Of a stretch of DNA of 64,000 nt, positions 29,860-54,267 are shown in pieces. Numbering within the stretch: position 1 is the first letter of the stretch; every line of letters starts with the position of its first letter. Under the pieces are notes generated by a model. It saw only the letters and a program-made list of their open reading frames with translations. It was not told where the DNA came from and did no database searches. The stretch is from an uncultured Lachnospiraceae bacterium (GTDB lineage Bacteria > Bacillota > Clostridia > Lachnospirales > Lachnospiraceae). The position numbers and the translations under genes were made by a program. Location of the stretch: contig CAMWJF010000018.1 of assembly GCA_947174505.1 (NCBI GenBank), positions 1 to 64,000 on the forward strand, read 5' to 3'.

Positions 29860-29979
29860 GGCAATTGTCAGGTAAAATAGAGTATATTGCGGGGGATTGT
29901 TAGTATTGCTTGAATTTTCAGTCAACAGTTACATACCAGGGGGACGCGCAAAATACGATATAATGTCAGGAGGGAGCAA

Positions 29980-30354
29980 ATGAAAGCGAAAACAAAAAGA
30001 GTGCTTGCAGCGGTGCTTGCGGCGGTTATGATACTGTCCAGTGTACCGTATGGCGATGGAGTGCTGGTGGCCAACGCCTCGAATGTAAGTGACAGTCTGG
30101 AAACGGACAAGGAAGTCCCGGAAGAAGAGAAGGTTTCGGAAGATGGGAATGAAGAGAAAACGGATGATGGAAATGACGAAGTCACGGAGACACCCAGTGA
30201 CGGGGATGTGATGGGTGACGAAGTGCCTGGTGACGGAAATACTGAGGATGGTGACGTACCTGACAACGGGAACGCAGTAGGCGGAGAAACACCTGACGAC
30301 GAGATTACAGACGGTGGAGAAATGACCGGGGGGGGGGCAGAAACCCGAGGATAA
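29980..30354 (+). CDS. N-terminal piece of a giant secreted GH43 protein, frame-shifted at a G10 run
   Basis: 124 codons beginning with AGGAGG 7-8 nt before the ATG and a clear signal peptide (residues 1-34, KAKTKRVLAAVLAAVMILSS then ANAS). An acidic Asp/Glu/Gly-rich stretch with repeated DGN/DGE motifs follows. The frame ends at a TAA (30352-30354) just after ten consecutive G residues. If one G is removed, the frame continues as GGGQKPEDNEPEEGG straight into the large downstream frame. So this is the start of one gene, not a separate protein. It could be a phase-off allele, a recent mutation or a sequencing error. Confidence 0.8.
   Translation: MKAKTKRVLAAVLAAVMILSSVPYGDGVLVANASNVSDSLETDKEVPEEEKVSEDGNEEKTDDGNDEVTETPSDGDVMGDEVPGDGNTEDGDVPDNGNAVGGETPDDEITDGGEMTGGGAETRG
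30328..30337 (+). repeat. Poly-G tract of ten bases causing a frameshift
   Basis: Ten consecutive G residues follow ACC in codon 117 of the giant gene. Nine (or twelve) G residues would keep the signal peptide in frame with the 3,016-codon body. Homopolymeric G runs in this position are classical slipped-strand sites. Confidence 0.9.
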
Positions 30355-30409
30355 TGAGCCGGAAGAGGGAGGCTCCACAGAGGAATGTCAGCATGCTGAA
30401 TGGAGCTAT

Positions 30410-33400
30410 GTGTCATGTCAGGATGGCACACACGAGGTAATCTGTACAGAGTGCAGCACTGTTTTGAGAGTGGAGGACTGCACCTATGAGGAGACTGTCT
30501 CCAGCAATACAACGGAAACGGTCAGCATATGTACATACTGTGGATATATTTTGGAGGAGGATGAGGAGCGGGAAGCACTTGTCCCGGCGTTAAGGGTTAC
30601 GCCGAGATCCTCTGAACATAAGAGAATCGCCTACTTCTCCTTTGATGATGAGACGGACGGTTTCATGGGAGCAGGCGCGAAGGCGGAGAAAAACGGAGAT
30701 TCTGGCCTGACTGCTGCCGGATGGCGTGGAAAAGCGTTGCAGCTTTCGGGGAATCAGTATCTGAATGTGACGAAGGAAGACGGGACGAGCCTTCTGACCG
30801 GGTTGGAAGGGATTACCGTTTCCTACTATAGTAAATGTAAAGCGGATGGCAATCAGGGATGGAGCTTTTATGCGGCTCCGAGCACGGCGGCGCCAGTATG
30901 GGGCAGCAACGAAAATTATCTGGGTATTCTGGACACTAAAAATGCGGTGAGTTCAGAAAGCTATATAGGGCTTAGGAGTAACAACACATCCGCCAGTGCA
31001 AAAACAGAGGGACTGGCAAATGAGTGGCGTCATGTAGCAGTGACTTATGACAGTCAGGGTACACGGATTTATATTGACGGAAAATTAAAAGTAAGCGGAT
31101 CAAATAAGGAAAATGCCAGCATAGCGACAATGCTTGGCACATCCAGTATCATACAGATCGGAAAGGCACAGTGGGGCAGCGGTGAGTACTACCAGGGTCT
31201 GATTGATGAGTTTACCATCTACGACTTTGTCATGACGGAAACGGAAGTGAATGAACTGTATGAGGGTTCCTTTGAGGATAATGTGGAAGTATCGGATCCT
31301 AAGATGCTGGCGCATTATACCTTCAGTGATATAAAAACGGCTAACGGCATCGCGGACGGCACGGCAGTGCCCGCGAATGCGACAGTGCCGAATACGTCGG
31401 CGGACACACAGGGCGAAAATTATGACGCACAGATCATAAACAGCGGCGCACAGCTTTATGAGGAGGACAGCAGTCTGCTTCTTCCCGGTGGCGCGGCAAG
31501 TGCGAATCCCGCCTATGTGAAACTTCCGAACGGGATGTTTTTGGATGAAAACGGCAGGATGCGGGATGTCCTGACGGTTAACATATGGATGAAGAATATT
31601 TCGGAGAGTGGTGACTGGACAGGTTTTTATGTGGGTACCGATCCGACGAAAAATACAGGCGGTGTGATGCCACTGAACTATCTGCTTCTGAATCCGAGAA
31701 AGGGCAATAAGTTTAAGGCGACGCTGACCTGCAACGATCAGGCGACCGGACAGCCGTACAACGGGGAGCAGACGCTCACGGAAGGCCAGACTACGGGAGC
31801 ATGGCAGATGTATACGGTGGTTGTCGGTCCCAGTGTGATGACGGCCTATCTGGATGGACAGCAGGTCGGCAGACGGATGCACAGCATGAAGATGTCCGAG
31901 TGGACAGCAGACGGGTCGACTGCTGTGCCGGATATTTTGGCATCCATCGGTGCGGGCGGATATGTGAACGATGGCAGATGGAACGGCGCAGTCAAAGAGT
32001 GTTCTATTTATAATTACCAGCTGACGGCGGAGCAGATCGACCAGCTCTATCAGGACGGACAGGAGAAGGAGGAAGTGGCCAATCCCATGATGCTGGCACA
32101 CTATACCTTTGACGATATCGCTTCTTACGCAGGAAACGCTTCTCTGGTGGATAAGGGCAAGGTGACCGACGGTGCCATTGTGCCCAACACATCGGAAGCC
32201 ACAAAGGATAAAAATTATCATGCCGTTGTACATGGAAACGGGGGAACTCTGCGCGCTGGCGGCATCGGTCTGGAGCTGCCCGGCGGCGAAGCTTCCAAGG
32301 ACTCCGCCTATGTGGAGCTTCCATCGGAGATGTTTACGGATAGTAACGGTAGGATGCGCAACACGTTGTCTGTCAATATCTGGATGCAGAATATTTCGGG
32401 ACAGGGAGACTGGACAGGATTTTACGTGGGTACCGACCCAGAGAAAAATACGGCGAATACAGGCAGGCCGTTAAACTATCTGCTTGTCAATCCGAGGAAA
32501 AATGACAAGTTTAAGGTAGCGATGACCTACAATCAGACAGTGACCGGTGACCCGTATAACAAAGAGAATCTGAACCAGAACGGCACCACGGATGACTGGT
32601 GGCAGATGTATACCATTGTTGTGAACGGTACGGATCTTACCACCTATCTGGACGGAAAAAAACTGGGGACAGTGAAACATAGCATGAAGATGTCTGAGTG
32701 GACGGCTGATGGTACGGATGCCGTGCCGGATATCCTTTCCTACATCGGTAAGGGCGGGTATGTCAGCGATAAGAGATGGAACGGTGCGGTGAAGGAATGC
32801 TCCATCTACAACTATGAGCTGACACAGGAAGAGATTATCAGACTATATGATGATGTTCATGCCCCGGAGGAGAGTGCGGCGGCGCTTGTGACGGCCACAA
32901 GTGTGTCAACGGATTTCCTGAGTGCGGGCAGCAGTGCCGACATTTATTTTGGGGATTCCTATGAACTGCCGGCGAAGACGACGGTGACGCTGTCTGATGG
33001 AAGTTCCAATGCGGCCTATGTTACCTGGTATAATGAGAAGGGTGAGAAGGTGACGGATACTTCCGTGCTGGAGCCGGGCACTTATAACCTGACGGGAAAG
33101 GTGGAAAATTATTTTCCCGCGCCCTTTATCGAGGAGCGCGCAGATCCGCAGGTCTATTATGATGAACCGGGCGGGAAGTATTATTTTACGTCATCTTGGC
33201 CGGCGTATGGTTCTAAAGAGAAGGGTTACGATAAGATTGTAATTCGTCAGGCGGACAGTCTCTTAGGGTTGGTGGATGCTGAGGAACATATTATCTGGAC
33301 GGCACCGGGAGATAAGTACGCAGGCAGATATCATATCTGGGCGCCGGAGCTGCACCATATCGGCTCGAAGTGGTACTGCTATTTTGCGGGCACCCTGAGC

Positions 33401-36400
33401 GGAGACTGGGATATCCGCCCCCGTGTCTTGGTGTGTGACGATTCCAGGGATATCACTAAAGCGGAGAACTGGACGGAACACGAGCGCTTTATGAACAAGG
33501 ACGGCGCGGACAGCGGCGTTTCAGACCTGTTCTCTCTGGATATGACTCACTTTGAGAACAAGGGAAAGCACTATGTCATATGGGCATATAAGCCTATCGG
33601 TTCCGAGCTTTTGATGGGCGAAGTGAGCGGAGACGATCCGACGAAGCTGATCGGCGAGCCGATGGTGCTGACTTACCCTGAGTATGCGTGGGAGTGCGAC
33701 GGCAATCAGAATGTAGATGAGGGTCCGGCTGTATTAAAAGCGAACGGACGGATTTATGTGGCTTTTTCGGCGGCGGCTACCGGGGATATGTACTGTATGG
33801 GCATGATGAGCGCTGATGAAGATGCCGATCTGATGGATATTACCAACTGGACGAAGTCTCCTACGCCGGTACTGCAGAGCAAGGATTTACAGGGGCAGTA
33901 CGGACCTGGACACAATTCCTTTACCGTGGATGAGGACGGGAAGGTGATTCTGGTATACCATGCAAGGGATGAAGAATGTCATGCCAATCAGTGCGGCTAT
34001 TCCAATGGGGATCCGCTGTACGATCCGTGCCGGAATGCGATGCTGGCATATGTGAGATACGCTGCGGACGGAACGCCTGTCTTTAACAGCACGGCAGATA
34101 AGGAACTGGCTGGATTGGATACCAGCAGTCTGAAATATACGCTGACAGTGGGAACCTTGACGGAAGCGGAACCGCTTGCCGCCTACCCGCTTGTAACGGA
34201 TGCAAAAGATGTCGTCACGAATACCCATGAGGGCACGATGCACGGAAATGCCGCCGCCTTTGACGGGGGACTGGCTGTTTCCGGTGCGGAAAACGCGAAC
34301 CTGATAAACTATCTGGATATCAGTGACAACGCGGATTTGCTGGCGGGACTTGAGGCGGCAAATAGCCTGACCATTACTGCATGGGTAAGGAATGACAATT
34401 TGAGCAAAGATAATGACGGCCTGCCAAGCAACAATAACCGGCCTACGGTATTTTCCATTGGCCGTGACGAGAATAATTTCTTTGCCCTCAGCACAGGAAA
34501 CTGGGGAGCGGCAAGAGCTTCGTTCTACATTGACGGTAAGGAGATCGGGGATTCCAATGGACAGACCCGTATCCAATACAATACGCCTGGCATGGAGAAA
34601 TCTGTGGTGGGAGAATGGTATCCTGTTGCTATAACCATGCGGGACATCTCCGCCGGTGGCAAGTCGAAGACCAGAGTCTGCTATTACATGGATGATGAAC
34701 TTTTATGTTCTGTGGACACGCCGGCATCTCTCAAGGATCTTGGAGGTCTTAAGCAGTTTTATATCGGCGGCGGCGTGAGCGCGGGGAACTACCACGACAT
34801 GTATGGCAGTATCCGTAATGTGAAGATTTATGACAAGGTGCTGCCGGCGGATCTGCTTGCGAAATATGATAAGGAATATCTGGTGGATAACCTTGCCATT
34901 ATGCTGGGGGCGGATCTGACCACTCACGCGATCCGCACAGGGGTATCCCTGCCTCTCCCGAAAACAGGGCATCCCGGCGTGACCTATACCTGGCAGACAA
35001 GCGATGCCGATATTATGGATGAGAATGGTATGGTGACGCCTTCCAAGGAGGAGAGAAAGGTAACGTTGACCGCAACAATAAAGACGACTTTGGACAGCGG
35101 TTATGCGCAGACAGTTACCTTCCCGGTGACAGTTCTCGATACCTATACCTTTTGGCTTGAGGAGGTATATAAAAATCTGTTAATCCGTAATATCAGCGAT
35201 GTAAGGGGAAGCCTGTATCTTCCGGTCTCAGACGATAGGTATCCAGAGGTCAGGATTTCATGGAAGTCAGATCATGCAGATATTATTTCTGATGAGGAGA
35301 AGAACGGGATTGCGCCCGGTCTGGTGACCAGACCTGCCGCGGATACGGATGTGAAGCTGACGGCCACGCTCAGCGTAGGGGAAGGAAATGATCTGCGGGA
35401 GAAAACGAAGGAATTTACCGCAAAGGTAAAACAGAAAGCCCAGGTCGGAGAGATGACGGACTATATGTTTGCCTACTTTATCGGCGAGGGGACAAAGACC
35501 GGTGAGCAGATGTACTTTGCGGACAGCCGGGACGGCCTGCACTGGACAGCATTAAATGACGGTGAAGCGGTTATCACTTCCAGCTTGGGTGAGAAGGGGC
35601 TGCGCGACCCGTTTATCATGCGCTCCCATGAGGGGGATAAGTTCTATCTGATTGCGACCGATCTCTGGATAGCAGGGGGTACGAGCTGGGGAGATTCCCA
35701 GACAAAGGGAAGTAAGAGCATCATGGTCTGGGAGTCCACGGATCTGGTAAACTGGTCTGAGCAGAGAATGTGTAAGGTGGCGGTGGACGAGGCCGGATGT
35801 ACTTGGGCGCCTGAGGCGTTCTGGGATGAGGAGACACAGGATTATGCCGTGTTCTGGGCGTCCAAGACCAGCCTTGACGGGTATGGGCCGCACCATATCT
35901 GGAAGTGCCATACAAGAGATTTTTATACCTACAGTGAACCGGAAATATGGATCACATTGAAGAATGCTTCCGGAAATGACATTAGTGTCATAGATACGAC
36001 TGTGATAAAGGCAGGCGATACTTACTATCGCTTTAACAAGAACGAGGATGGCGGCAATGCGGTGATGACCAACGGCGATTCGATTGGTACCAAATTTGTC
36101 TACATGGAAAAGAGCAGTTCTCTGGATGGGACATGGGAGTATGTTCCCTCCTCGTATCTGTTGGATCCTTCCAACCAGTACAGGGAAGGGGCAACCTGTT
36201 TCAAGTTTAATGACGAGGATGTGGAGACGGATACCTGGTGTCTGCTTCTGGATAATTTTGGCGGCGGCGGTTACTATCCGGCTACCACAACGGATCTGGC
36301 TTCCGGGAACTTTACGAAGCTGGGAGCCTCTGAGTATTCCTTCCCGACCGAGGGAATTCTCCGCCACGGTTCGGTGCTGAATATTACAGCGGAAGAATAT

Positions 36401-39400
36401 GCGGCCATTGAAAAGAAGTGGGGGCCGTTCGTGGAGGAGGAAGAGACACCGACAACAACGCTGGAGGAAGCTCGCATTGCATCCTTTACCTTCGACGATG
36501 AGGAGAGCGGCTTTAGGGGCAGCGGCGCAGTGGCTGATAAGAAAGGTGAACCCGTGCTCTCTGAGGAAATCAGGGAAGGCGCTTCCGGGAAAAGTGCGAA
36601 ATTTGGCAGCGGAAGCTGGCTGGATGTGAAGACAAAAGGCGGGCACAGCCTGCTGACCGGTGTGGAAAGTATGAGTATTTCCTACTACAGTAAGTCGGAA
36701 GATCCAAACAAGGACGGAGCCGGATGGGCATTCTTTGCAGCGCCCAATGCCAAAGCGCCCGAGTACAACAAAAGCGAGAACTATCTGGGCATTTTGGACC
36801 ACGTGGGAGAAGTCAAGGCGGAAAGATACCATGGGACCAGGGGAAGTGCCACATCGACATCAACCCGTGCCTCTTCTTTGGAAAATACATGGCGTCACGT
36901 GGTGGTGTCTTACACGCCTAAGGGTGTGAGGATTTATATTGACGGGGCTTTGAAAGCAACCATATCAAAGAGACAACTTTCAGCGCTGCCTGATCTGCTG
37001 GGCGATAGCAGTATTCTCCAGATTGGAAAAGGGAACTGGGGCAGCGGCGAGTATTTTAACGGATATATGGATGATGTGACGATCTACAACCGGGCACTGA
37101 CCCAAGATGAAGTTACAGCCATCTATGAAGGAAGGGTGCCTATGCCGGGACCTGAGCCGGATGTGCCCACCTATACGGTTACGTTTGATCCCGATGGCGG
37201 TACACTCTCCGGGGCAGAATTTGTGGAGGTGGATGAAGGCGGAACGGTCGGCAGACCGGCTGATCCTATAAGAAGCGGCTATACATTCCTTGGCTGGAGC
37301 CGGGAAAAGGATGGGACGGTATACTGGGATTTTGAAGCGGATACAGTATCGGGCAACTTGACACTTTATGCGTGCTGGAAGTCAGTGGAAGGGCCAGTAG
37401 ATCCCGATCCCGATGAGCCTGGATCGGATGAACCCGGAAAAGGCGAATGGGGAGACATTCTTCCGGAAGACAGGCCTGCCAGTGAGGAAGCGGTTCCGAA
37501 AGGCCTGTGGATTGCGGGCGTGGAGGAACAGGGCTATACCTATACCGGGAAAGCAATGAAACCAGAGGTGCGCGTATATAACCATAAAAAACGGCTGACG
37601 CTTAAGACGGATTACACCATTGCCTACAAGAACAATGTGAAAGCAAGTGACGCATCGGATGCGAAGACAGCGCCGACCATCACAGTGACGGGCAAAGGCA
37701 ACTACACAGGCAAAGACACTGTGTGCTTCAAGATACAGCCCAAGGATATCAGCAGTGAGGATATCTCTATATTCGATATCGCAGTTGCCTATAAGAATAA
37801 TAAGGTGCAGAAGCCGGTTCCTGTTGTGAAATGGAACGGCAAAAAGCTGGCGAACAAGAAGGATTTTACGGTGGAATATCCCGACAGTGACAAGAATGAA
37901 TTAGTCGGAGGGGAAACCGTGACAAGGAAGGCATATTCGGATTCTGGCGACTGGCGTATCGCCGTAACCGGCGCCGGAAACTTTGCGGGGACGAAGGAGA
38001 TCACACTGACCATCGCAGATAAGGACGCTAAGCTGACAGAGAAGCTGAGTGTAGGAAAAATCCCGAACCAGACCTACACAGGAACGCCTCTAATGCCGGA
38101 ACTGGTGGTAAAGGATGGCAAAACGCTGTTGAATGAGGATAAGGATGAGGAGGGGCATGGACATTATAAGGTAGTTTATGAGAATAATACCGAAATCGGG
38201 ACGGCTACCGTGATTATCACAGGCATTACCAGGGCGGCCACAGAAACAGAGCCCGGTTTCAGCTATGTCGGGGAGAAACGCGTCACCTTTAAGATTGTCG
38301 GTGAGAAAATCGGCAAGGCAAAAGTGACGGAGGGCCTTGAAAAGTCTTATGTCTACACAGGCAGGGAGATCAAGCCGACTCCCAAACTTGCCGTAAGCGT
38401 AAAAGAAAACGGAGCCACTGTTTCGAAGCAGCTGGAGCCTGATAAAGATTATACGGTGAAGTACACAAACAACATGAAGGTCGGAACGGCGACGATCCTC
38501 TTTACGGGGAAAGGGGCATACACTGGCACACTGAAGAAAACCTTCAAGATCAGTGCCTATGATATCGGGACAGATCTATCCGAGAGGTTGGTGATTGAGG
38601 AATTGGGCGAGATCCCTTACGCCAAGGGTGGCAGTAAACCAAAGCCTGTGGTGACTTACAAGTATGGCGGGGACATGGTGACCCTGACGGAAGGTGCAGA
38701 CTACACGCTCTCCTACAAAAACAACACGAAGCTGAATGACTGCGGGGAAGGCACGGACCAGAACAAATGGCCGACTGTGGTTGTGAAAGGAAAGGGCAAT
38801 TATAAGGGAGCGAAAACGGCGACATACAAGATCGTACCTCAGGATATCGGAAAGCTGGAAATACAGGTTGCCGACAAAGTTTACCAGAATAAGCCGGGCA
38901 GATACCAGTCGGTTCCGAAAGTGATTGACCTCAACGGGAAAGCATTGGCGAAGGGGATGGACTATGACAAGACCTTCTCCTACGCGTATGCGGAGGATGT
39001 GACACTTGCGGACGGCACGCTGACTAAAGATTATAGACCAGTTGGAAGTACGGATATTCTGCCGGTTGGCACAGAGGTACAGGTGACGGTGACGGCGAAG
39101 GAAGGAAACTATACCGGCACGCTGGCAGGAACCTACCGCATTACGGCGAAAAGCATTACTGGGGCGTCTGTGACGGTGAACCCGCAGGTTTACACCGGAT
39201 ATGAGGTGAAGCCGGGGAAAGACCAGATTACAAAGATCAAAGTCGGCAAGGATAATCTGGAAGAGGGTGACTACGAGATTATCGGTTATACGAATAATAT
39301 CAAAAAGGGAACCGCAAAAATGACCATAAGGGGTGTCGGCAATTACGGCGGCATAAAGACGGTCAGCTTTAAGATCACGCCTAAGAAGTTTGTATGGTGG

Positions 39401-39460
39401 TCACCGGAGGAGGCGGGTAGTGTATACGAAATACTGCAGAATCTCCTACAATTTAATTGA
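30410..39460 (+). CDS. Giant secreted multimodular GH43 glycosidase, main body
   Basis: 3,016 codons; joined through a nine-G tract to the signal peptide at 29980 it would make 3,159 residues, the numbering used here. A Cys-rich segment (145-185) leads to LamG modules at about 214-430, 437-692 and 700-960. An Ig-like module and GH43 module 1 (1044-1377; Asp1055, Asp1187, Glu1247) come next. A fourth LamG (1395-1635), two Ig-like modules and GH43 module 2 (1825-2149; Asp1876, Asp2005, Glu2069) follow, then a fifth LamG (2164-2385), an InlB-type repeat (2394-2467), an acidic Pro linker and seven beta repeats to the end. GH43 enzymes cleave arabinan, xylan and related glycans. No LPXTG motif or membrane anchor is seen. 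The GTG at 30410 is not a convincing start. Confidence 0.88.
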   Translation: MSCQDGTHEVICTECSTVLRVEDCTYEETVSSNTTETVSICTYCGYILEEDEEREALVPALRVTPRSSEHKRIAYFSFDDETDGFMGAGAKAEKNGDSGLTAAGWRGKALQLSGNQYLNVTKEDGTSLLTGLEGITVSYYSKCKADGNQGWSFYAAPSTAAPVWGSNENYLGILDTKNAVSSESYIGLRSNNTSASAKTEGLANEWRHVAVTYDSQGTRIYIDGKLKVSGSNKENASIATMLGTSSIIQIGKAQWGSGEYYQGLIDEFTIYDFVMTETEVNELYEGSFEDNVEVSDPKMLAHYTFSDIKTANGIADGTAVPANATVPNTSADTQGENYDAQIINSGAQLYEEDSSLLLPGGAASANPAYVKLPNGMFLDENGRMRDVLTVNIWMKNISESGDWTGFYVGTDPTKNTGGVMPLNYLLLNPRKGNKFKATLTCNDQATGQPYNGEQTLTEGQTTGAWQMYTVVVGPSVMTAYLDGQQVGRRMHSMKMSEWTADGSTAVPDILASIGAGGYVNDGRWNGAVKECSIYNYQLTAEQIDQLYQDGQEKEEVANPMMLAHYTFDDIASYAGNASLVDKGKVTDGAIVPNTSEATKDKNYHAVVHGNGGTLRAGGIGLELPGGEASKDSAYVELPSEMFTDSNGRMRNTLSVNIWMQNISGQGDWTGFYVGTDPEKNTANTGRPLNYLLVNPRKNDKFKVAMTYNQTVTGDPYNKENLNQNGTTDDWWQMYTIVVNGTDLTTYLDGKKLGTVKHSMKMSEWTADGTDAVPDILSYIGKGGYVSDKRWNGAVKECSIYNYELTQEEIIRLYDDVHAPEESAAALVTATSVSTDFLSAGSSADIYFGDSYELPAKTTVTLSDGSSNAAYVTWYNEKGEKVTDTSVLEPGTYNLTGKVENYFPAPFIEERADPQVYYDEPGGKYYFTSSWPAYGSKEKGYDKIVIRQADSLLGLVDAEEHIIWTAPGDKYAGRYHIWAPELHHIGSKWYCYFAGTLSGDWDIRPRVLVCDDSRDITKAENWTEHERFMNKDGADSGVSDLFSLDMTHFENKGKHYVIWAYKPIGSELLMGEVSGDDPTKLIGEPMVLTYPEYAWECDGNQNVDEGPAVLKANGRIYVAFSAAATGDMYCMGMMSADEDADLMDITNWTKSPTPVLQSKDLQGQYGPGHNSFTVDEDGKVILVYHARDEECHANQCGYSNGDPLYDPCRNAMLAYVRYAADGTPVFNSTADKELAGLDTSSLKYTLTVGTLTEAEPLAAYPLVTDAKDVVTNTHEGTMHGNAAAFDGGLAVSGAENANLINYLDISDNADLLAGLEAANSLTITAWVRNDNLSKDNDGLPSNNNRPTVFSIGRDENNFFALSTGNWGAARASFYIDGKEIGDSNGQTRIQYNTPGMEKSVVGEWYPVAITMRDISAGGKSKTRVCYYMDDELLCSVDTPASLKDLGGLKQFYIGGGVSAGNYHDMYGSIRNVKIYDKVLPADLLAKYDKEYLVDNLAIMLGADLTTHAIRTGVSLPLPKTGHPGVTYTWQTSDADIMDENGMVTPSKEERKVTLTATIKTTLDSGYAQTVTFPVTVLDTYTFWLEEVYKNLLIRNISDVRGSLYLPVSDDRYPEVRISWKSDHADIISDEEKNGIAPGLVTRPAADTDVKLTATLSVGEGNDLREKTKEFTAKVKQKAQVGEMTDYMFAYFIGEGTKTGEQMYFADSRDGLHWTALNDGEAVITSSLGEKGLRDPFIMRSHEGDKFYLIATDLWIAGGTSWGDSQTKGSKSIMVWESTDLVNWSEQRMCKVAVDEAGCTWAPEAFWDEETQDYAVFWASKTSLDGYGPHHIWKCHTRDFYTYSEPEIWITLKNASGNDISVIDTTVIKAGDTYYRFNKNEDGGNAVMTNGDSIGTKFVYMEKSSSLDGTWEYVPSSYLLDPSNQYREGATCFKFNDEDVETDTWCLLLDNFGGGGYYPATTTDLASGNFTKLGASEYSFPTEGILRHGSVLNITAEEYAAIEKKWGPFVEEEETPTTTLEEARIASFTFDDEESGFRGSGAVADKKGEPVLSEEIREGASGKSAKFGSGSWLDVKTKGGHSLLTGVESMSISYYSKSEDPNKDGAGWAFFAAPNAKAPEYNKSENYLGILDHVGEVKAERYHGTRGSATSTSTRASSLENTWRHVVVSYTPKGVRIYIDGALKATISKRQLSALPDLLGDSSILQIGKGNWGSGEYFNGYMDDVTIYNRALTQDEVTAIYEGRVPMPGPEPDVPTYTVTFDPDGGTLSGAEFVEVDEGGTVGRPADPIRSGYTFLGWSREKDGTVYWDFEADTVSGNLTLYACWKSVEGPVDPDPDEPGSDEPGKGEWGDILPEDRPASEEAVPKGLWIAGVEEQGYTYTGKAMKPEVRVYNHKKRLTLKTDYTIAYKNNVKASDASDAKTAPTITVTGKGNYTGKDTVCFKIQPKDISSEDISIFDIAVAYKNNKVQKPVPVVKWNGKKLANKKDFTVEYPDSDKNELVGGETVTRKAYSDSGDWRIAVTGAGNFAGTKEITLTIADKDAKLTEKLSVGKIPNQTYTGTPLMPELVVKDGKTLLNEDKDEEGHGHYKVVYENNTEIGTATVIITGITRAATETEPGFSYVGEKRVTFKIVGEKIGKAKVTEGLEKSYVYTGREIKPTPKLAVSVKENGATVSKQLEPDKDYTVKYTNNMKVGTATILFTGKGAYTGTLKKTFKISAYDIGTDLSERLVIEELGEIPYAKGGSKPKPVVTYKYGGDMVTLTEGADYTLSYKNNTKLNDCGEGTDQNKWPTVVVKGKGNYKGAKTATYKIVPQDIGKLEIQVADKVYQNKPGRYQSVPKVIDLNGKALAKGMDYDKTFSYAYAEDVTLADGTLTKDYRPVGSTDILPVGTEVQVTVTAKEGNYTGTLAGTYRITAKSITGASVTVNPQVYTGYEVKPGKDQITKIKVGKDNLEEGDYEIIGYTNNIKKGTAKMTIRGVGNYGGIKTVSFKITPKKFVWWSPEEAGSVYEILQNLLQFN

Positions 39461-50982: not shown

Positions 50983-51918
50983 TCAGATTTCTTCGCGGCG
51001 CAGCTTATTGCGGTATTCCGTGGGGGAACAGCTTGTGAATTTGCTGAAACAGCGGTTGAAAGTAGTCAGGTTGTTAAAGCCGCTGCAAAAAGCAATGTCC
51101 GTAATGGGCCGGTTCCTGTCCTCGGTGAGCAATGACTGCGCCGCCTGTATTCTTTTGTGGCACAGGTAGTTATGAAACGTCGTGTTGGTATGCTGCTTGA
51201 ACAGACGGGTAAAGTGGTATTTGGAAAAGCCGATATATTCCGCCGCCTGTTCCAGCGTCAGGTCATCCGCGTAATGCGTGTCGATAAAATTGAGCAGATT
51301 GGAGAATAGCGCGTAGTTTTCCGACTGACTGCCAGCGGCGTTTTCCACATTCTCATCCGTGCTCTGGAGATAGTGGTCCGCGCCTATGACTGCAAAAAGC
51401 TCCAACAGCGCGGCGTAGATGGAAATTTCCCAAAAAACCTGATGGGAGAAATAGAGATCGGCCATCCGCATCAGGGAATCGTAAACCTGTCTGTAGATTT
51501 TAGGGTGCGAGGCAGTGGTGCACAGATAGGCTTCCATAAAAGCCGGGTCAAGCGCCTTATAGTCCTGAAAACAGCGCAGCATTTCAATGTCGATAAGATA
51601 GATGAAGCGCGCCCCGGAAGGCTTGCTGCGAAGCTCGTGCAGCATATATGGGGGAATGATCAGAATATCTCCCGGCTCCAGCGAGTAGGTGTGGCTGCCG
51701 GTGGTAATGATATACTGGTTTTCGGCGCAGACGATAATTTCCAGGGCGTTGTGGTAGTGGTTTGCATAGTCTTCGTCCTGGGTATTATACCAGATACGCA
51801 GATGGGATTCGGGGATGAAGTCGACATATTCCCTCGAGCCGCTTAATGAGCGTGCCGTGAAATTCAAAACGGGCTGCTCATAATTGAGGGGGGGGGGTAA
51901 ACTTTTTTCATGTTTCAC
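50983..51918 (-). CDS. AraC family regulator with a C10 tract in its first codons
   Basis: 311 residues from the GTG at 51918, chosen because AGGAG lies 8 nt upstream. The N-terminal cupin domain has NHYHNALEIIVCAENQYIITTGSHTYSLEPGDILIIPPYMLHE. The C-terminal pair of helix-turn-helix motifs reads LTLEQAAEYIGFSKYHFTRLFKQHTNTTFHNYL and ITDIAFCSGFNNLTTFNRCFSKFTSCSP. It probably senses a sugar and controls the ABC transporter and GH3 genes on either side. Ten consecutive C residues encode prolines at codons 8-11. A change in tract length would remove the protein or switch it to an ATG at 51911. Confidence 0.88.
   Translation of the reverse strand: MKHEKSLPPPLNYEQPVLNFTARSLSGSREYVDFIPESHLRIWYNTQDEDYANHYHNALEIIVCAENQYIITTGSHTYSLEPGDILIIPPYMLHELRSKPSGARFIYLIDIEMLRCFQDYKALDPAFMEAYLCTTASHPKIYRQVYDSLMRMADLYFSHQVFWEISIYAALLELFAVIGADHYLQSTDENVENAAGSQSENYALFSNLLNFIDTHYADDLTLEQAAEYIGFSKYHFTRLFKQHTNTTFHNYLCHKRIQAAQSLLTEDRNRPITDIAFCSGFNNLTTFNRCFSKFTSCSPTEYRNKLRREEI
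51888..51897 (-). repeat. Poly-C (coding strand) tract of ten bases in the AraC gene
   Basis: Ten G residues on the plus strand equal ten C residues in the coding strand, within codons 8-11. As sequenced, the GTG start is in frame with the body. Eleven C residues would instead put the ATG at 51911 in frame. Confidence 0.9.
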
Positions 51919-52146: not shown

Positions 52147-54267
52147 ATGACGAGAGAAGAGGCAAGACGCAGGGCAGAGGAGTTAGTGGGGCAGATGACG
52201 GTGGAGGAGAGAGCTTCCCAGCTCCGCTATGATGCGCCTGCGATTGAGCGGCTTGGCGTGCCGACGTATAACTGGTGGGGAGAGGCTTTGCACGGCGTGG
52301 CAAGGGCCGGTGTGGCGACCAGCTTTCCGCAGGCCATTGGCATGGCGGCCACCTTCGATACGGAATTGGTGCATAAGGCCGGGGATGTGGCGGCGACAGA
52401 GGGCAGGGCGAAGTATAATGCGCTGTCTGCGGAAAATGACAGGGATATCTATAAGGGACTGACCTTCTGGTCGCCCAATGTGAATATTTTCAGGGACCCC
52501 AGATGGGGAAGAGGACAGGAGACTTACGGGGAAGATCCCTATCTGACTTCCCGGCTGGGCGTAGCCTATGTGGAAGGACTGCAGGGCGATGATGGCGACA
52601 CGATGAAGTCCGCGGCCTGTGCCAAGCACTTTGCGGTACATTCCGGGCCGGAGGCGGTGCGCCATGAGTTCAATGCCGTGGCCACGAAGAAAGATATGGC
52701 GGAAACCTATCTGCCCGCCTTTAAGGCATGTGTGCAGGAGGCCGGGGTGGAGGCCGTGATGGGCGCCTATAACCGGACGAACGGGGAACCGTGCTGCGGC
52801 AGTAAGACGCTGATGCAGGATATTCTGCGCGGTGAGTGGGGATTTGAGGGGCATTTTGTGTCGGACTGCTGGGCCATCAAGGATTTCCACGAGAAGCATA
52901 TGGTGACGCATACCATGGAGGAGTCCGCGGCGCTTGCCTTAAAGTGCGGCTGTGATATCAACTGCGGCGTGACTTATCTCTATCTGCTGAAGGCGCTGGA
53001 ACAGGGGCTGGTGACGGAGGAGGAGATCACGGAGGCGGCCGTGCGCGCGTTTACCGCGAGATACCTTCTCGGCCTGTTTGACGGCAGCAGATACGATGAC
53101 ATTCCCTATGAAAAAGTGGAGTGTGAAGAGCATCTGGAGGTGGCGCAGCAGCTTGCCAGAGAGGCGGTGGTGCTTCTCAAAAACGACGGCGTCCTGCCGC
53201 TGAAAGCAGCGGAGGGCCGGACTATCGGTGTGATCGGACCGAATGCCGACAGCAGGGAAGCGCTGGTCGGGAACTACCACGGCACTTCTTCCAGATATAT
53301 TACGGTTTTAGAAGGCATACAGGATAAAATCGGACGAAACGGCAGGGTTTTATACTCGGAGGGATCCCATCTGTTTCAGGACCGCGTGGAGAACCTTGCA
53401 TGGGAGAACGACCGCATCGCGGAAGCGGTTACGGTGGCAAAGCACAGCGACGTGGTGGTGCTCTGCGTGGGACTGAACGAGACGCTGGAAGGGGAGGAAG
53501 GCGACACGGGCAACAGCTATGCGTCCGGGGACAAGGCGGATCTTCTGCTGCCCGCGTCCCAGAGAAAGCTGATGGAGGCGGTGTTTGCCGTCGGTAAGCC
53601 TGTGGTCGTCTGCCTGATGGCGGGCAGCGCGATTGACCTGTCCGATGCGCAGGAGAAGGCGGCGGCGGTGCTGCAGCTCTGGTATCCCGGCGCAAGGGGC
53701 GGAAAGGCGGTGGCGGACATTCTGTTCGGGGACTGTTCCCCGTCGGGAAAGCTGCCAGTGACTTTTTACCGGTCTCTGGAGGGACTTCCGGCTTTTGAGG
53801 ACTACAGTATGAAGGGGAGAACCTACCGCTATATGGAGCAGGAGGCGCTTTATCCTTTCGGATACGGACTGACCTACGGCGACGTGCAGGTGGAGAGCGC
53901 GGATCTTTCTTCGAAAGATGATGTTTCCGGGGATGTGACCTTGCAGATAACCGTGAAAAATGCGGGAAATACAGCAACGGGCGACGTGCTCCAGGTTTAT
54001 GTGAAAGATCTGGAGTCTCCCTACGCCGTGCCGAATCACAGCCTCTGTGCGTTTGCGAGAGTTTATCTGGAAGCGGGAGAGAGCAGGGAGTTGGACATGA
54101 CCGTTTCCGGCAACGCTTTTCTTGCGGTCAATGAGGAGGGTGCTTTTGTTGAAGGCGGCGGCAGTTATGTGCTCTATGTGGGCACCGGGCAGCCGGATGA
54201 GCGGACAGCCGCGCTTTCGGGCAGGAGATGCGTGGAGGTGGCTGTGAAGCAGGCGCATGTGAAGTAA
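52147..54267 (+). CDS. Glycoside hydrolase family 3, beta-xylosidase/beta-glucosidase
   Basis: 706 residues with no signal peptide, so it acts inside the cell on imported oligosaccharides. The GH3 N-domain has NWWGEALHGVAR, WSPNVNIFRDPRWGRGQETYGEDP and the nucleophile Asp240 in HFVSDCWAI. The GH3 C-domain has EAVVLLKNDGVLPL, VIGPNAD and the candidate acid/base region GLNETLEGEEGDT. A fibronectin-III-like domain ends the protein (VTLQITVKNAGNTATGDVLQVY). The WGEALHGV and SDCWAI contexts favour the xylosidase-type subgroup. It works downstream of the transporter at 47588-50981. Confidence 0.92.
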   Translation: MTREEARRRAEELVGQMTVEERASQLRYDAPAIERLGVPTYNWWGEALHGVARAGVATSFPQAIGMAATFDTELVHKAGDVAATEGRAKYNALSAENDRDIYKGLTFWSPNVNIFRDPRWGRGQETYGEDPYLTSRLGVAYVEGLQGDDGDTMKSAACAKHFAVHSGPEAVRHEFNAVATKKDMAETYLPAFKACVQEAGVEAVMGAYNRTNGEPCCGSKTLMQDILRGEWGFEGHFVSDCWAIKDFHEKHMVTHTMEESAALALKCGCDINCGVTYLYLLKALEQGLVTEEEITEAAVRAFTARYLLGLFDGSRYDDIPYEKVECEEHLEVAQQLAREAVVLLKNDGVLPLKAAEGRTIGVIGPNADSREALVGNYHGTSSRYITVLEGIQDKIGRNGRVLYSEGSHLFQDRVENLAWENDRIAEAVTVAKHSDVVVLCVGLNETLEGEEGDTGNSYASGDKADLLLPASQRKLMEAVFAVGKPVVVCLMAGSAIDLSDAQEKAAAVLQLWYPGARGGKAVADILFGDCSPSGKLPVTFYRSLEGLPAFEDYSMKGRTYRYMEQEALYPFGYGLTYGDVQVESADLSSKDDVSGDVTLQITVKNAGNTATGDVLQVYVKDLESPYAVPNHSLCAFARVYLEAGESRELDMTVSGNAFLAVNEEGAFVEGGGSYVLYVGTGQPDERTAALSGRRCVEVAVKQAHVK

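Follow-up and report, generated by a model that had tools for sequence, protein, structure and literature searches.

Mucosal pathogens are the best-known cases of slippage-driven phase variation. It has also been shown in a gut commensal, in the pili of bifidobacteria (PMC9187656). In the sortase-dependent pilus genes of Bifidobacterium breve UCC2003, as described there, an intragenic G-tract parts a Sec signal ORF from a very long body ORF, which in bbr_1889 encode 65 and 2,674 amino acids, respectively; replication slippage restores the frame, and a range of tract lengths was measured in the population (PMC9187656). A second layout is described for porA of Neisseria meningitidis, where the poly-G is located between the -35 and -10 elements (PMC3639595). 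The phasomes of Campylobacter and Neisseria, as presented in PMC6321876 and PMC5953494, comprise many long repeat tracts per genome, placed in reading frames and in promoters, and many of them are at surface-related genes.

Here we describe a giant gene in a 64,000-nucleotide stretch of DNA of an uncultured Lachnospiraceae bacterium, hereafter the window. The gene has the same layout of signal ORF, G-tract and body ORF as the B. breve pilus switch. We suggest that its run of ten G very probably serves as a slipped-strand (replication slippage) contingency switch in a gene for a giant secreted GH43/LamG enzyme.

Architecture of the locus

The signal-peptide ORF (Table 1) encodes a signal peptide that is typical by eye (MKAKTKRVLAAVLAAVMILSSVPYG...VANAS), followed by an acidic linker. 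The initial annotation had stated that this ORF and the body are in different frames across the G10 tract, which is read directly from the sequence, and that deleting one G joins them. The latter agrees with the distance of 348 bases from the start to the tract, for which the in-frame lengths are 0 modulo 3, the assembled length being 10. The body frame is preceded by TGA at 30323-30325 and is open from 30326 to 39460, with the GTG at 30410 as its listed start (3,016 aa). With G10 the signal frame meets a stop at 30352 and the third frame meets one at 30438. Hence, it depends on the tract length alone whether a short dead-end product or the full protein would be made. As expected of a translational contingency locus, the tract is inside the coding sequence and is longer than expected by chance, and the gene whose frame is set by its length is otherwise intact and under selection. 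The earlier description of the gene as switched off stands for the assembled consensus and does not reach beyond it; the length itself (10 as against 9 or 11) is given by one assembly and could be off by one.

Table 1. Coordinates and strands of the features discussed, numbered from the first base of the window
Feature	Position	Strand	Remarks
Shine-Dalgarno AGGAGG of the signal-peptide ORF	29968..29973	+	Read from the sequence
Signal-peptide ORF	29980..30354	+	124 aa, ATG start; signal peptide by eye, acidic linker, dead end 15 bases past the G-run
G10 tract, proposed slippage switch	30328..30337	+	Ten consecutive G
Body of the giant secreted protein	30338..39460	+	3,040 codons without a stop
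Best GH43 stretch	33122..34078	+	Residues 929-1247 of P0002; PF04616
Second catalytic domain	35456..36415	+	Residues 1707-2026; nearest to an alpha-arabinofuranosidase model
Best of the five Laminin_G_3 stretches	36776..37114	+	Residues 2147-2259
AraC-family regulator gene	50983-51918	-	GTG start, AGGAG upstream
Second G10 run	51888..51897	-	C10 on the coding strand; codons 8-11 of the AraC-family regulator, in frame if GTG 51918 is the start

We also considered an independent start of the body and rejected it, as no conserved start with a Shine-Dalgarno sequence was found. Of the start-type codons in the first 200 of the body only the GTG at 30410 has a weak GGAG upstream, and neither of the two orthologs described below has a body-frame start with a GGAG-type upstream sequence. 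This bears out the earlier remark that the body lacks a convincing start of its own.

The body matches the Pfam families GH43 (two stretches), Laminin_G_3 (five stretches), Flg_new, aBig_2 and Big_4. PF04616 scores 145 bits over the whole protein, above its curated cut-off of 32.2, and PF13385 scores 226.8 bits with a cut-off of 27.6; NF052546 reaches 190.6 bits against the second catalytic domain, under its cut-off of 500. No LPXTG is seen by eye at the C-terminus of the giant protein, and no pilin domain was found in it by Pfam. The product is probably a secreted GH43/LamG enzyme, and its domains point to an arabinose- or xylose-containing polysaccharide as the likely substrate.

Long G-runs stand out in the window. 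Runs of at least six G comprise eight of length 6, none of lengths 7-9 and two of length 10, and there are no C-runs of at least 6 on the forward strand. With the tracts masked during training, Markov models of orders 1 to 5 predict 0.43, 0.040, 0.038, 0.013 and 0.002 runs of at least 10 on both strands, respectively, and the observed runs are far above this expectation. The second G10 run is separate from the giant gene and of the same kind, and it may be another switch. The AraC-family regulator gene in which it is located adjoins a GH3 gene (52147-54267).

Conservation between species

Searches of 61 genomes with an 854-aa piece, of contigs with the body and of 77 genomes with the signal piece yielded two orthologs, the other matches being weak or different proteins. 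The first belongs to an uncultured Lachnospiraceae bacterium (G003; CASWVG010000039.1) and is 88-89% identical, and the second to Lachnospiraceae bacterium UBA7060 (DLAA01000017.1, or G063:C155) with 73% identity. Comparison with related genomes, a check that the initial annotation had proposed, showed that both orthologs are also split by a G-run (G9 and G10, respectively) and out of frame. The G9 of G003 is in the same place as the G10 of the window, 392 bases from the start. In UBA7060 the tract is elsewhere, 151 bases past the start, in a linker which by eye is different in sequence. The lengths that would keep the frame are thus 0, 1 and 0 modulo 3 in the window, G003 and UBA7060, and the assembled lengths are 10, 9 and 10. 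In all three species the assembled tract is out of frame and the signal frame ends soon after it, and no in-frame copy of the giant gene was found among them. The offset goes one way in the window and UBA7060 and the opposite way in G003. The body is open over 3,040, 3,181 and 3,250 codons in the window, G003 and UBA7060, respectively.

The comparison of the window with G003 gives a dN/dS of 0.125 over 3,033 codons in the body and of 0.275 over 112 codons in the signal peptide and linker. AGGAGG is present upstream of the signal ORF also in G003, with a similar AAGGGAGG in UBA7060. The dN/dS values indicate that both pieces are under purifying selection, which argues against a pseudogene. The differing directions of the offset and the moved site, in turn, argue against a fixed programmed frameshift; the variable offset and place fit a tract whose length is random and which takes up changes of frame.

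Poly-G tracts in coding sequences of the genus

The genome of the window has 15 G-runs of at least 10 outside the 100 bases next to contig ends. Seven more genomes of the genus have 120 runs, of which 106 are covered by 99 stretches; the 14 left-out runs are near contig ends, with the exception of the run of the UBA7060 ortholog. When 18 runs of the window's genome were added, some of them near contig ends, the set comprised 122 distinct tracts, 78 with 10 G, 26 with 11, 7 with 12, 8 with 13 and 3 longer. Poly-G at the contig ends themselves (L026-L028 and others) was set aside as a probable read artefact. In two contigs of the window's genome, at the end of G000:C4 (L012) and the start of G000:C6 (L194), the assembly breaks off at or next to a promoter-type G-run or poly-G of a secreted-protein gene, for which either mixed lengths or read artefacts could be responsible.

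A codon-score test was applied to 125 tracts, that is, to this set with the window's tract and those of the two orthologs. Coding sequence on both sides was called for 17 tracts, of which 9 are in frame and 8 out of frame. Of the others, 59 were filed as not coding on both sides, 43 as weak and 6 as lying too close to an end. The test left both ortholog tracts uncalled, and these were inspected by hand. Twelve of the 17 called tracts, from the eight genomes taken together, are by eye in the linker of clear signal-peptide genes. Seven of these are in frame (L010, L022, L082, L091, L114, L148 and L175) and five are out of frame (the window gene, L092, L104, L110 and L153). L177 was called out of frame and is in frame by eye, and it was kept out of the 12; L025, L095, L117 and L129 were called coding and are of another kind than the linker tracts. 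A profile scan of ten bodies, nine from linker-tract genes and that of L177, revealed four BspA-type LRR proteins, one other LRR protein, one GH53, one CBM27/CBM17_28 and one transglutaminase-like protein, and gave no Pfam match for the remaining two. L010 and L148, which are lipoprotein-like by eye, are without a Pfam match as well.

Strict flank matching between species produced five tract pairs, all of equal length (for runs of at least 8, with most loci picked for at least 9-10). In looser pairs, matched by eye, G13 stands against G11 (L149/L173) and G12 against G11 (L128/L162), the adjoining bases or the alignment differing too. The mismatch-repair domain MutS_I was found in 74 of the 77 genomes of the genus, and the three genomes without a match belong to the least complete ones, at 66-68%. 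This count does not support a lack of mismatch repair as the reason for the long tracts.

Poly-G tracts upstream of genes

Across the 77 genomes the pattern G9-TANNNT occurs 268 times and the reversed pattern 35 times; the former is more frequent in 62 genomes, less frequent in 1 and equal in 14. The excess does not consist of promoters only: TAA or TAAA also comes after several coding tracts (L022 and L110 among them), and the count includes the window's second tract, inside the AraC gene. Hence, a -35 test and a family-based test were added. In 46 genomes from other genera of the same family (order sample) there are 10 G9-TANNNT sites. Elsewhere in the order sample, G053 (family f18) has 12 such sites with a control of 1, and families f11 and f5 also exceed the reversed control; the poly-G habit may extend beyond the genus.

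With at least 5 of 6 bases and a spacing of 15-21 taken as the criterion, a -35 element is present at 13 of the 34 tracts of at least 10 that are followed by TANNNT, compared with 1.5 on average and at most 7 among 500 shuffles, and the spacing is 19 in 9 of the 13. A second tract set gave 7 of 29 (shuffled mean 1.2, maximum 6). Among control tracts without a following TANNNT a -35-like hexamer was found in 6 of 86, including the exceptions L149 and L173, which resemble real promoters with a shifted -10.

For the family test, the 77 genomes were searched with the 70-residue N-terminus of the L174 protein, so that loci were collected by protein similarity alone; the query had been found through its own tract. 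The search gave 36 matches in 22 genomes, of which 30 were read, including the query and several previously known loci. With the query excluded, 20 of the 29 upstream regions of this signal-peptide family contain a G-run of 7-13 (one of 7, seven of 9, five of 10, six of 11 and one of 13). The runs are 55-135 bases upstream, mostly between TTGAC- or TTGC-like and TA-AAT-like boxes. At the other nine loci the longest run is at most 5, one of them (L194) being at a contig start full of poly-C/G. As judged from these sequences, the length variation is between homologous promoters of species and paralogs, not within a strain. Eight of ten scanned promoter-tract proteins have no Pfam match in the part covered, and two are LRR/DUF285 proteins.

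Two further features of the upstream runs were seen. At L015, L089 and L150 an inverted repeat of the AAACACGTAAAAC...TTTTATGTGTTT type, recognized by eye, flanks the promoter G-run and could serve as an operator or form a terminator-like hairpin. At L083, L118 and L152 (genomes G063, G081 and G083) a run of G10-G11 is a short way upstream of flagellin genes (Pfam Flagellin_N); the run of L152 immediately precedes the start codon and could act on translation.

Discussion

We suggest the following mechanism for the giant gene. At an in-frame tract length the ribosomes would proceed from the signal peptide via the Gly-containing acidic linker into the body, and the full-length enzyme would be exported. 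At the other lengths translation would end about 15 to 100 bases past the tract and no enzyme would be produced. With the gain or loss of G in the tract during replication, ON and OFF cells would appear reversibly, most likely by replication slippage at the G-run of the kind measured in B. breve. A low product level in OFF cells through RNA-polymerase slippage is possible. The slippage rate, the mixture of states in the population, the effect on secretion and the substrate are what we infer for the giant gene from its sequence and from the likeness to the known switch.

The initial annotation had proposed slipped-strand phase variation, and the comparative data support this proposal. The gene is split in all three species with differing offsets while both halves are conserved, and in the genus there are linker tracts both in frame and out of frame together with promoter-spacer tracts that vary in length. 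Three observations count against a switch, namely the equal lengths in all five strict pairs, the wide presence of MutS_I, which would slow slippage, and the absence of an in-frame copy of the giant gene among the three species. Meningococci are described to switch at mononucleotide tracts despite repair, the loss of which raises the rate 100- to 1,000-fold (PMC3639595); thus, the presence of MutS_I does not refute the slippage model.

The plain alternative named in the initial annotation, a homopolymer error of sequencing or assembly, would mean that the true tract is fixed in frame and the gene is always on. The window's length does come from one assembly of a genome that also has artefact-like poly-G contig ends, and both orthologs are metagenome assemblies as well. 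However, an independent assembly has the homologous tract at a different length, and the second ortholog has an equally long run elsewhere. Three independent off-frame errors in one gene are hard to expect, and a G9-G10 run would serve no evident need in a gene that is always on. We therefore judge a pure artefact unlikely. If, alternatively, the frames as assembled are real, the gene might be expressed at a constant low level by RNA polymerase slippage or a programmed ribosomal frameshift, without genetic switching. Long homopolymers can cause RNA polymerase slippage, and such recoding would explain why three of three orthologs are out of frame yet conserved. A fixed frameshift, however, needs one direction, whereas G003 is shifted opposite to the window and UBA7060 and the site has moved in UBA7060; with the required direction differing between orthologs, the programmed ribosomal frameshift was rejected. 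Tracts of the same kind are, moreover, in frame in other genes of the genus, and those in promoter spacers cannot act by recoding, so that constant recoding appears an improbable account of the locus.

The separate frames of the assembly would also be expected of a decaying pseudogene or of two genes, one for a small secreted peptide and the other for a cytoplasmic enzyme. The dN/dS of 0.125 in the body and about 3,000 stop-free codons in each of the three species stand against this, and the pseudogene was ruled out on these two grounds. The body has no conserved start with a Shine-Dalgarno sequence, and the signal peptide upstream of it is conserved. We hold both versions to be extremely improbable, and replication slippage at the G10 tract is the reading that we prefer.

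We regard the genus-wide pattern as a more interesting claim than the single gene. It seems likely that a whole genus of gut Lachnospiraceae runs a poly-G phasome with two types of switch, post-signal-peptide and promoter-spacer, which would randomly toggle individual giant secreted and surface proteins; many enzyme and surface repertoires would then coexist in one clonal gut population. The targets in such a phasome would be glycan-degrading enzymes, BspA-type LRR proteins, lipoproteins and perhaps flagellins. Should the pattern hold, random switching would diversify the polysaccharide-degrading and surface proteins in one group of gut Lachnospiraceae. Surveys of gene presence would then overstate the momentary activity of a strain, automatic annotation would keep splitting G-run genes, and G-run lengths in metagenomic reads could show how diet or host selects between ON and OFF states. 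Among the matches listed in our search of open-licence PMC articles, which is weak evidence of absence, there was no report of poly-G phase variation in Lachnospiraceae. The kind of switch is already known; as far as these matches go, its extent across a Lachnospiraceae genus appears to be new, and so does a target that is a glycan-degrading giant.

Beyond the shared layout, the B. breve switch concerns an actinobacterial pilin that has LPXTG and is accompanied by a sortase cluster, whereas the giant gene encodes a Lachnospiraceae GH43/LamG enzyme without a terminal LPXTG; the length mixtures were measured in B. breve, and the tract of the giant gene is known from assembled sequence. The porA tract is in the promoter, unlike that of the giant gene, which is inside the coding sequence. 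The promoter-spacer tracts of other genes of the genus, in contrast, share with porA both the layout and the range of lengths (7-13 G). In having many tracts, in reading frames as well as in promoters, the genus is similar to Campylobacter and Neisseria with their phasomes. However, unlike in these, the tract genes of the gut Lachnospiraceae genus include giant secreted LRR and carbohydrate-active proteins.
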